From an uncultured Bacteroidota bacterium (lineage in GTDB: Bacteria; Bacteroidota; Bacteroidia; Flavobacteriales; Flavobacteriaceae): a stretch of DNA of 41,619 bases. The DNA is taken from positions 1 to 41,619 of the forward strand of contig CACLAD010000009.1 of NCBI GenBank assembly GCA_902604715.1, read 5' to 3'. Below are positions 21,602 through 24,483 of this stretch, piece after piece. The translations under genes and the position numbers were made by a program. The notes under the pieces are model-generated. The model was not told the DNA's origin, searched no databases, and worked only from the letters and a program-made list of their open reading frames with translations. The first letter of the stretch is position 1, and each line of letters starts with the position of its first letter.

Positions 21602-21790
21602 ATGTTAAGCCCATTAATGTTTATAATTGGATTTATAATATTCCTGCTTTACATGTCAGGATTACTGTGGATGATCAAATCATCTCATGATGATCAACGA
21701 AGAAGAAGGGAAAGGGACGAAAGGCTAAATCAATCTGACGAGAACGACTATGATGGTGGAGGAAATTGGGGTAGATTTGAAAATAAGTAA
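21602..21790 (+). CDS. Small single-pass membrane protein, 62 residues
   Basis: This is the last gene of the quinone reductase operon, 3 nt after the preceding stop. One transmembrane helix (about 4-25) is followed by a highly charged tail (SSHDDQRRRRERDERLN) and a Gly/Asp-rich end. No family is recognised. Its TAA is immediately followed by the tRNA-Thr relic, so the gene ends exactly at the boundary of the repeated sequence; whether the original gene was longer cannot be told. Confidence 0.55.
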   Translation: MLSPLMFIIGFIIFLLYMSGLLWMIKSSHDDQRRRRERDERLNQSDENDYDGGGNWGRFENK

Positions 21791-21837
21791 GAGCCAATGC
21801 CGAGAATTGAACTCGGGACTTCTTCCTTACCAATGAA
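21791..21837 (-). pseudogene. 3' fragment of tRNA-Thr(GGT)
   Basis: This is a 47-bp stretch that matches 23135-23181 at 45 of 47 positions. It contains the anticodon loop, the 3' half of the anticodon stem, the variable loop, an intact T-arm and the 3' acceptor strand, but no D-arm or 5' half, so it cannot make a tRNA. It lies in the same orientation as the complete gene, directly downstream of the kelch gene. The breakpoint at the anticodon loop and retention of the 3' end are typical of attachment-site duplications left by elements integrating into tRNA genes. Confidence 0.9.
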
Positions 21838-21855
21838 AGGGATGTTGTTTATTAA

Positions 21856-23040
21856 CTAATTTTGTTTTATAAACTTGAATGTTTTTGAAAATCCTTGACT
21901 GAATAACTTTAAGAAATAAGTATTTTGGGATAAGTTATCAGTTCTGATATTATTATTTTTTAATATTTGACCTGTTTGAACAATCTTAGATGAAGTATCA
22001 TATATTTCATATTGTAAACTATCATAATCAGATTTAATATTTATAAAATTTGTTGATGGATTTGGGTAAATTATAATTTTATTTATTAAGTCAAAACTAT
22101 TATCGCCCAAAATTTGTTCAATACTAGCATTCTGTACACTATTTAGCCAACTTTCAGAAGACGGAGTATAATTACCACCTACAATATATATTTCAGAATT
22201 TATAATTTCAGAATCAAAATGTCTTCTACCAATCATATTATTTTCTATATTGATAAAAGTTTGATTTGAAGTATCAAACAACGCTATTCTGTTTAATTCA
22301 GTGTAGTCGCCTAGAATAAATATTAAATCATCGATGGTACTAAGAGAATTAGCTGAAACTGAGAAAGGCATCACGAACTGACTTTCCCACTGATTGGTAG
22401 TTAAATCAAATACATCAATTTTATTTGAGACAGAACCATTATAACCTCCTATTGTATATAATTTGTTATTTAAAATCTCTCCTCTAGTATTTTTAGCTTC
22501 TGGCATATTTGGTAATTCTGTCCAAGAATCAAAAGATGTGTTGTAATAATAAAACGTACTGTAGTAATTATTTTCATTAGAACCTCCAAATACATAAATA
22601 TTATTATTTAACTGAGCTGAACCTGCCTGTTCTCTAGGAATAGGATTATTAGTACCATAACCAACCTCTCCAGAAGTTAAATTTATAATTTCCAATTCTT
22701 GGTTATAATTATTAAGATTAGAATTTAGCTCGCCATTGAAAAGGTACAAGTAATCTCCGATTATCTCTCCATTTCCATATCTCTTATCAATTAAACTAAC
22801 ATTAGGTTGGAATATTTCCCATTGATCAGATGAAAAATCATATATGTAAAGAAAATCGTAAACACTTGGATAAATATCGCCACAATTTATAATTATTTTA
22901 TTTCCATATTTACTTGTGGTTAACAGTGAGATATTTTCTGGAATATCTTGTGAATCAGTAAAATCTAAGTTTCCCTGAGCAATAATGTTGTAAAAAAACA
23001 ATTGAAATAATACTACAGGGAAAATTAAGTGTTTTTTCAT
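21856..23040 (-). CDS. Secreted kelch-repeat protein with T9SS type A sorting tail
   Basis: This 394-residue protein starts best at ATG 23040 (MKKHLIFPVVLF), which places a signal peptide (1-22) at the N-terminus; a longer frame from 23067 would bury it. Kelch-like repeats run from about 40 to 300, visible as IYVFGGSNENNYYS, LYTIGGYNGSVSNKIDVFD, LIFILGDY and IYIVGGNYTPSSES blocks with WxxxxxMP motifs. The last 75 residues are a Por secretion tail (IIYPNPSTNFINIKS, YEIYDTSSKIVQTGQ, YFLKLFSQ), so it is exported by the type IX system. The gene is the only one between the tRNA-Thr relic and the intact tRNA-Thr. Its ligand is unknown. Confidence 0.85.
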   Translation of the reverse strand: MKKHLIFPVVLFQLFFYNIIAQGNLDFTDSQDIPENISLLTTSKYGNKIIINCGDIYPSVYDFLYIYDFSSDQWEIFQPNVSLIDKRYGNGEIIGDYLYLFNGELNSNLNNYNQELEIINLTSGEVGYGTNNPIPREQAGSAQLNNNIYVFGGSNENNYYSTFYYYNTSFDSWTELPNMPEAKNTRGEILNNKLYTIGGYNGSVSNKIDVFDLTTNQWESQFVMPFSVSANSLSTIDDLIFILGDYTELNRIALFDTSNQTFINIENNMIGRRHFDSEIINSEIYIVGGNYTPSSESWLNSVQNASIEQILGDNSFDLINKIIIYPNPSTNFINIKSDYDSLQYEIYDTSSKIVQTGQILKNNNIRTDNLSQNTYFLKLFSQGFSKTFKFIKQN

Positions 23041-23064
23041 TCGAGAAAAGTACAAAAAAAAAGA

Positions 23065-23100
23065 CAAAATTATATTTATCCTATTATTATACTTAACAAA
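23065..23100 (-). promoter_or_regulatory. Weak candidate promoter for the kelch gene
   Basis: On the minus strand, TTTG (23100-23097) is followed after 24 bp by TAATTTTG (23072-23065), a full match to the -7 consensus but with spacing slightly over the usual 17-23. The predicted RNA start is near 23058, about 18 nt before the chosen ATG. Confidence 0.35.
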
Positions 23101-23134
23101 GTAAATGAAAGATTAGTAAACAGCTATAACAGAT

Positions 23135-23181
23135 GAGCCAATGCCGAGAATTGAACTCGGGACCTCTTCCTTACCAAGGAA
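23135..23181 (-). repeat. Direct-repeat copy within intact tRNA-Thr(GGT)
   Basis: This is the partner of the relic at 21791-21837. The two copies are identical for 29 bp, then differ at two positions (C/T and G/T) within the next 18 bp. They are 1344 bp apart and flank exactly one gene. Confidence 0.9.
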
Positions 23182-23207
23182 GCGCTCTACCACTGAGCTA
23201 CACCGGC
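23136..23207 (-). tRNA. trnT: tRNA-Thr (GGT anticodon)
   Basis: A 72-nt minus-strand cloverleaf. Acceptor GCCGGTG pairs with CATTGGC, including two G-T pairs; discriminator T. The anticodon stem CTTCC/GGAAG holds loop TTGGTAA with anticodon GGT. No encoded CCA. It is the last tRNA of the cluster, equivalent in order to E. coli thrT. Confidence 0.96.
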
Positions 23208-23592: not shown

Positions 23593-24483
23593 TCAACCTT
23601 TGTTTCGGGGGTGAGATTTCTTAAAAACTTTTTTTATTTCTTCGATAGATCTATTTGTGTAAACCTGTGTAGCGGCAAGGCTTGTATGCCCCAATAAATC
23701 TTTAACCGAATTTAAATCGGCCCCGTTATTTAAAAGATGAGTTGCAAAAGAATGACGAAGGATATGTGGGCTTTTTTTAAGCTTAGTTGTAAAACCAGAA
23801 AAATATTTTTTAGTAATTCTGTAAACCAGATTATCATAAATTTTTTTTCCTTTAGAGGTTAAAATAAGTGTGTCATTACTTTTTATATTTTTTAGCTTAT
23901 TTCTGAATTCCAAATATTTTTCAATAGATTTTAAGCCTGAATCAATAAGCGGAATATATCTTTCTTTATTTCTCTTGCCTAAAACTTTTATTCTACTATT
24001 TGAATAGTCTATATTTTGAATTTTTAGATCAATTAACTCTTGTCTTCTAATTCCTGTGGTATATAATAGTTCTAATACAAGATAATCTCTAGATCCTTCA
24101 AAGGAGTTTTTAAAATTTTTAGATTTTAAAACATCTAAAATCTCACTTTCAGAAAATGGTAATTGAATTGTTGATTTTGTTTTTAAAGCTTTATGCTCAT
24201 TTAAGGGGTTTTTTTTAATATCTCCCGTCTTGAGTAAAAACTTATAATAACTATTTAGAGAAGATATTTTACGATTTATTGAAGAATTAGAAATTTCATC
24301 GGCTACAAGAGAAACGATCCAGGATCTGATTTGAGAATAATTAGCTTTTTTTATCCCTTTTTGCTCAAACTTTTCAAAGTTAAAATCATAAAAAGTCTTT
24401 AAGTCGTTTTTGTAAGCAACAATAGTTTTGGGAGAGTACTTTTTCTCTAGTTGTAAATGATCAAGAAATGAATTAAATTCCAT
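23593..24483 (-). CDS. xerC: Tyrosine recombinase XerC/D
   Basis: This chromosome-dimer-resolution recombinase has 296 residues. The N-terminal SAM-like core-binding domain occupies 1-85. The catalytic domain has R146 (TTGIRRQEL), K170 (LGKRNKER), H240 and R243 (HILRHSF), H266 (LLGHTSL) and nucleophile Y275 (TQVYTN). It lies 61 nt downstream of rpsU, the usual position in Flavobacteriia, so it is the housekeeping enzyme and not a mobile-element integrase. Confidence 0.92.
   Translation of the reverse strand: MEFNSFLDHLQLEKKYSPKTIVAYKNDLKTFYDFNFEKFEQKGIKKANYSQIRSWIVSLVADEISNSSINRKISSLNSYYKFLLKTGDIKKNPLNEHKALKTKSTIQLPFSESEILDVLKSKNFKNSFEGSRDYLVLELLYTTGIRRQELIDLKIQNIDYSNSRIKVLGKRNKERYIPLIDSGLKSIEKYLEFRNKLKNIKSNDTLILTSKGKKIYDNLVYRITKKYFSGFTTKLKKSPHILRHSFATHLLNNGADLNSVKDLLGHTSLAATQVYTNRSIEEIKKVFKKSHPRNKG

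Follow-up and report, generated by a model that had tools for sequence, protein, structure and literature searches.

A kelch-protein gene beside tRNA-Thr(GGT) as a probable member of a family of small, integrase-less cassettes in marine flavobacteria

The stretch of DNA analysed here (the window; 41,619 nt, contig CACLAD010000009.1 of a small-genome marine flavobacterium) carries the gene order rpoC-rpoB-rplL-rplJ-rplA-rplK-nusG-secE-tuf, followed by several genes, an array of tRNA genes on the minus strand (Thr-Gly-Tyr-Thr), xerC and rpsU. Pfam and NCBIfam scans covered ten proteins near the site of interest; the remaining gene names were assigned by eye from translations or sizes. Our subject is a single gene enclosed by two copies of the 3' part of tRNA-Thr(GGT). 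The intact tRNA gene, the presumed integration target, was placed by ARAGORN at 23135..23207 (minus strand, anticodon ggt). Realignment confirmed the direct repeat claimed in the original prediction: two 47-nt copies (21791-21837 and 23135-23181) in the same orientation, 45/47 identical and 1344 bp apart, corresponding to the tRNA from its anticodon stem-loop through its 3' end. The copy at 21791..21837 (minus strand), referred to below as the relic, would be the far-end copy of the attachment site, and its two mismatches fall within nt 1-44. A 29-nt piece of the repeat, searched with up to 3 mismatches in the whole assembly (1.39 Mb, 80% complete), matched only the two repeat copies, and the reversed pattern used as a control gave no match.

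The backbone gene c13 (21602..21790, plus strand; 62 aa, no Pfam match) forms the left boundary of the insertion. Since it ends directly before the relic, the insertion point is taken to be the 3' end of the tRNA. The claim that exactly one gene lies between the copies also held, as a single plausible gene was found there (21856..23040, minus strand), encoding a protein with kelch repeats and a C-terminal type IX secretion system (T9SS) type A sorting domain, according to Pfam and NCBIfam. Its start is likely the ATG at 23038-23040, which we chose in preference to the TTG at 23067 given by the open reading frame (ORF) tool, 27 bases further out; this yields a protein of 394 aa. An 18-bp spacer (21838..21855) separates the relic from this cargo gene and is devoid of the right-hand arm common to five other cassettes described below (0 matches in this genome). 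On the other side, a conserved left module of type A, recognized by its identity to other cassettes, extends from the start-codon region to the tRNA (23033..23134, minus strand) and presumably contains a promoter. Within it, at 23075..23094 (positions counted by hand), lies a weakened pair of repeats with 11-bp spacing (6/8), which are putative integrase arm sites. The neighbouring XerC-like recombinase (23593..24483, minus strand) belongs to the genomic context only.

The same site was compared in the window genome (G000) and 20 relatives of the same genus (completeness of the 21 genomes, 56-86%). In 17 of them the tRNA array could be located and, as the contig of G002 begins at the tRNA, 16 were assessable. 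Half of these (G000, G004, G009, G011, G012, G017, G018 and G019) carried relics at tRNA-Thr(GGT). Four further sites (G005, G006, G007 and G016) were empty, with c13 ending 10-44 bp from an intact tRNA and no gene between, while G001, G003 and G014 had other DNA there, with neither relic nor module. Stacked units with several relics were present in G009, G012, G018 and G019. The location is therefore fixed, its content differs among genomes and some sites are vacant, as in additive tRNA-targeted islands; tRNA-Thr(GGT) is a recurrent integration site in this genus. The original prediction had proposed looking for relics beside different cargo in relatives, and these were found, together with the empty sites; the outcomes it had named as contrary (the kelch gene at this site without a relic, or as a vertically inherited core gene) were not seen in the 20 relatives.

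Beyond the genus, a 27-nt tRNA-Thr core pattern matched 224 of the 299 family genomes (no judgement is possible for the other 75) and occurred twice only in G000 and in G154, a member of another genus. The two cores of G154 are on opposite strands and could represent a second tRNA gene or another hotspot. Within the genus, three contigs (G006:C9, G006:C34 and G002:C8) end exactly at the tRNA array, so that the site perhaps varies within the sampled population. In addition, a larger multi-gene stretch reaches from the backbone to tRNA-Thr in L065 (G011), L069 (G018) and L062 (G019), possibly an older accretion in each case; those in L065 and L069 include a glutamate-synthase-small-subunit-like gene (named by eye).

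The cargo, identified with Pfam and PADLOC (the latter run on nine proteins, that of G009 not among them), differs between cassettes. Besides the kelch/T9SS gene of G000, we identified a PD-(D/E)XK nuclease in G017 (PADLOC candidate system PDC-S26, E 9e-123), a DUF285 protein in G004, an alpha/beta-hydrolase-like protein below the Pfam cut-off, designated c22, in both G012 and G018, a protein of no family, c28, in G011 and G018, a TPR protein and an AIPR protein with an AbiU match (E 1e-14) in G019, a hydrolase in G020 and a 179-aa protein of no family in G009. Other PADLOC matches were weak (E about 0.006, a G003 protein). The suggestion that such cassettes deliver surface proteins does not cover all of the cargo, as two of the genes match defence models. 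The kelch protein itself has only weak matches in the 20 same-genus genomes (best E 8.5e-10, mostly through the shared sorting tail). Among 395 genomes of the order, 33 contain a match at E<=1e-15: the window genome, six more from its family, and 26 from a single genus in another family, to which the closest relatives (34-42% identical) belong. This patchy spread points to acquisition, and the possibility that the gene is part of the vertical core was rejected on the same grounds. No match to the DNA of the kelch cassette was found in phages.

The kelch cassette shares only positions 23033-23134 with other cassettes, at identities of 93% (G004), 89% (G018) and 86% (G009) over 102 bp and 85% (G017) over 81 bp. 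In general, the conserved left module spans 80-100 bp and abuts the tRNA or a relic, and the conserved and variable parts of the cassettes meet at the start codon. Type A modules occur in G000, G004, G009, G017 and G018, type B in G011, G012, G019 and the inner G018 unit, and the module of G020 has diverged. R1, a sequence-only model of this left end, scored strongly (E<=2e-12) at 10 places, distributed over 9 of the 21 genomes and all at tRNA-Thr or a relic; nine are its own training sequences, the exception being the inner G018 unit. Its remaining 15 hits in the genus were weak (E>=0.0019), and in the 299 family genomes, 53 of which had hits at E<=0.01, none besides the window was better than E 1.8e-4; these were taken as chance. 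A common right end, next to the relic, is present in G004, G011, G012, G018 and one G019 unit in spite of their different cargo, and was found in 5 of the 395 order genomes, all of the same genus.

An 8-bp repeat pair with 11-bp spacing and a score of at least 7/8 was detected in 8 of 11 left ends (the 10 modules plus the recombinase-bearing element of G009 described below), 55-68 bp from the core, a range set after seeing the data. The background was 0.76% of 36,000 random windows, and 0/7 for sites lacking the module. At the corresponding place, and at equal spacing, the G009 element has another repeat, ATAAGTTCA. Judging from sequence and position (about 60 bp from the tRNA), these pairs resemble the arm sites of integrases.

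Evidence of mobility came from the c22 cassette, an integrase-less unit of 1.1 kb. Its copies in G012 and G018 differ by one mismatch in 1,022 bp counted from the first base of the relic; the divergent part starts at the second codon of the cargo and takes in the left module. Each copy is internal to its own contig and flanked by sequence of its own genome. In contrast to this near-identity, the xerC regions beside the same array are only 71% identical, and G012 and G018 lie far apart in an xerC tree (16 rows, with good support for 5 of the 13 inner branches). This comparison points to a recent, site-specific transfer of the cassette between distantly related species. The c28 cargo of G011 and G018 (98.2% identical; xerC 91%) involves a closer pair and is less telling.

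Most relics match the 3' part of the tRNA to about nt 44 and diverge beyond (wider differences are seen in two decayed relics, those of G012 and G019), which places the crossover near the anticodon stem-loop, inside the tRNA gene, whose 3' part is restored. The anticodon stem-loop is a common target of tyrosine integrases. In G009 the 3' part of the tRNA is changed (about nt 1-26) and the relic at -4519 keeps the sequence typical of the genus, indicating that the incoming element replaced the 3' part. This element (L070), which stretches over 4.5 kb from that relic to tRNA-Thr, encodes a divergent tyrosine-recombinase-like protein of 597 aa together with small unknown genes. It is the only integrase-bearing element seen at tRNA-Thr(GGT), and represents the kind of version that the original prediction had advised searching for. 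HxxR and GH...Y motifs are visible in the 597-aa protein. Its C-terminal part is matched (30 bits) by a profile of six ORFs which, being found by similarity to it, make the match partly circular; at least two of the six have canonical integrase motifs by eye, and the ORF from L129 is merely the longest in its locus. Neither Pfam nor PHROG gave a hit for the protein, viral contigs and phages contained no relative, and within the family weak C-terminal matches appeared in just 6 of the 299 genomes; a PDB sequence search gave nothing meaningful, and AlphaFold no usable model (mean predicted local distance difference test score 33.7).

The statement that no integrase is present holds for the kelch cassette, but a tyrosine recombinase does lie nearby, at 23593-24483. 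Its best NCBIfam match is XerC (E 2.4e-83, 280 bits, under the model cut-off of 335). Wherever the tRNA array was located (17 genomes, those with empty sites included), a PF00589 gene adjoins it, and for this reason the gene was judged to be a housekeeping gene and rejected as the cassette's own enzyme. With PF00589, every one of the 21 genomes yielded one or two XerC/XerD-like genes (only two in most, at the completeness given above). Additional hits were confined to G009 and G020, in both cases next to tRNA-Asn, apart from two scraps below the threshold in G012. The cassettes contain no PF00589 gene; as in cis-mobilizable elements (CIMEs), attL and attR are kept and an integrase gene is lacking, the right end of the window cassette being without the shared arm. 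They most likely depend on an enzyme acting in trans. The same cells may harbour an integrase that escaped detection, because the genomes are incomplete and PF00589 missed the G009 protein. Exact cassette ends had no match in viral contigs. One viral contig with a 20-nt arm pattern was considered as a helper, but it appeared to be an unrelated phage and the single match was judged to be chance. tRNA-Thr core patterns gave first no match in viral contigs and then three, all in contigs carrying unrelated phage tRNAs.

Insertion at this tRNA has thus recurred, with empty sites, shared ends, changing cargo, stacked units and a recent transfer across species. On balance, we consider it probable that the segment 21791-23134 is a long-integrated member of a family of integrase-less, mostly one-gene cassettes (about 0.65-1.8 kb) which, in this genus of small-genome marine flavobacteria, insert at tRNA-Thr(GGT) by means of an enzyme supplied in trans. 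A tyrosine recombinase would join a circular form of the cassette to the tRNA near the anticodon stem-loop; the cassette core would restore the 3' part of the tRNA, and the displaced 3' part would remain as the relic at the far end. The recombinase would be provided by an integrase-bearing element or a phage, and the arm-like repeats of the module, one helical turn apart, may serve as its arm sites. Each newly arriving cassette would insert next to the tRNA, displacing earlier ones outward. The original prediction left open whether the locus is the scar of a larger element or a small non-autonomous cassette, and the latter fits better, since integrase-less cassettes share conserved ends and one of them moved between species.

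Several observations weigh against this interpretation. The conserved module is present in G020, where no relic was detected; the right arm was not found in the window, G017 or the inner G009 unit; and the repeat pair scores only 6/8 in the window module, 5/8 in G020 and 4/8 in the inner G018 unit. No integrase with the arms of the cassettes was found in the viral contigs, phages and genomes searched. The c22 cargo stands behind two different left modules (B in G012, A in G018), a pattern that simple transfer of a cassette leaves unaccounted for. Finally, in the clade of G000, G004, G009 and G017 the module is 86-91% identical and xerC 89-92%, as would fit one inherited insertion with exchanged cargo (between this clade and the distant G018, the values are 84-90% for the module and 69-72% for xerC).

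Some of these points bear on other explanations. Each cassette could be the decayed remnant of an autonomous tRNA-Thr element that lost its integrase, in the manner of CIMEs. The recombinase-bearing element at the same tRNA in G009, the integrase 3'-end scraps among one-gene units at tRNA-Asn (see below) and the missing right arms would all agree with such decay, which we nevertheless regard as unlikely: both ends persist in five cassettes whose cargo differs, the relic lying only about 75-150 bp from the cargo gene, and the near-identical c22 cassettes of two distant species must either have moved without an integrase or have lost it identically twice. Less probable still is a single ancestral module-bearing insertion whose cargo was later exchanged by homologous recombination between the module (or signal-peptide DNA) and the relic. 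The xerC-like divergence of the type A module, which all four genomes of the above clade have, the junction of conserved and variable parts at the start codon, the c22 cargo behind module A or B and the repeated signal-peptide DNA, which could provide homology, speak for it, but empty sites, stacked multi-relic units and the identity of c22 from the first base of the relic require site-specific events. Chance or mechanical duplication of a piece of the tRNA beside a vertically inherited kelch gene would account for the repeat and nothing more, and is highly improbable given the absence of a close kelch match in the same-genus genomes, the recurrence of relics with other cargo and the conserved ends.

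As regards the window's own copy, the two relic substitutions, the weakened repeat and the lack of a right arm suggest a fixed, immobile insertion, and this copy is probably old and decayed. Exchange of cargo within an inherited insertion may hold in part for it, an independent insertion being equally compatible with the data.

A second set of loci emerged from the DNA encoding the signal-peptide start (ATGAAAAAGCTAATACTATTACTATTTATTCC, up to 3 mismatches), which is present in 1-12 copies in 20 of the 21 genomes (control, 0). Thirteen loci were examined, three chosen for extra PF00589 hits and ten for clusters of this DNA, and the repeats have a single orientation within each of them. Nine are adjacent to tRNA-Asn(GTT): L219 (G020), L220 (G009), L221 (G012), L235, L238, L239, L240, L242 and L243, all with clusters of genes whose starts consist of near-identical signal-peptide DNA. 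Integrases are located at tRNA-Asn in G009 and G020, and in some of the tRNA-Asn loci integrase 3'-end scraps occur among one-gene units. In G009 a tRNA-Asn relic 8.8 kb out delimits a segment (L220:9180-18033) whose genes include those for an integrase, a ResIII-type helicase and two DNA methylases; it looks like a mobile restriction or defence island. An 11-bp-spaced repeat scoring at least 8/9 within 170 bp was found in 7 of the 9 tRNA-Asn ends (461 of 9,000 random windows), several of which are near-identical and hence not independent. The same signal-peptide DNA opens the tRNA-Thr cassettes of G004, G012 and G018. The tRNA-Asn clusters form a second, larger hotspot, from which cassettes at tRNA-Thr may draw cargo.

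Additive flexible genomic islands with tRNA direct repeats are known from 'Ca. Actinomarinales' (PMC7771536, where transfer between genera is reported), Methylophilaceae (PMC10872708) and Alteromonas (PMC4119200). The accessible portions of these papers describe no conserved cassette ends or arm repeats, whereas the cassettes analysed here are mostly single-gene, share a module and include a near-identical copy in two distant species. CIMEs, as far as the available text of PMC5704250 goes, keep attL and attR without integration or transfer genes, undergo tandem accretion and are described as decayed integrative and conjugative or integrative and mobilizable elements. The present cassettes resemble them in having attL/attR without an integrase and in stacking, but here unrelated cargos share one set of ends; no conjugation genes were noticed in the cassettes, though no search was aimed at them. 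Tycheposons, according to the part of PMC10872708 at hand, are tRNA-bordered cargo elements of marine bacteria with a tyrosine recombinase and a size of 4-200 kbp, in contrast to the 0.65-1.8 kb of the cassettes, which have no PF00589 gene. Integron cassettes and clusters of attC sites lacking integron-integrases (CALINs) comprise single-gene mobile cassettes in integrase-less arrays mobilized in trans, in the sections available of PMC11389934; the present cassettes appear to differ in attaching at the 3' part of a tRNA and in having arm-like repeats. No description of such cassettes in these flavobacteria was found in the literature searched, which covered few subscription papers. Additive tRNA-targeted cassettes of marine bacteria are already in print, and what is new here is the single-gene, integrase-less unit with shared arms.

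A broader scheme can be offered only tentatively, and we hold it to be rather doubtful: an integron-like system of streamlined marine flavobacteria, anchored on tRNA genes, in which tyrosine recombinases acting in trans would insert cassettes of one gene into tRNA-Thr, and probably also into tRNA-Asn. Every cassette would bring its own promoter and phased arm sites, and new cargo would be acquired by recombination at the start codon or at the signal-peptide DNA, of which a genome has up to 12 copies. The conserved ends (left module and right arm) can be used to seek helper integrases and further cassettes in metagenomes. The cassettes illustrate how small a mobile unit may be when its enzyme comes from elsewhere and, if the proposed interpretation is true, streamlined ocean bacteria would gain a route by which single surface and defence genes are swapped between species.
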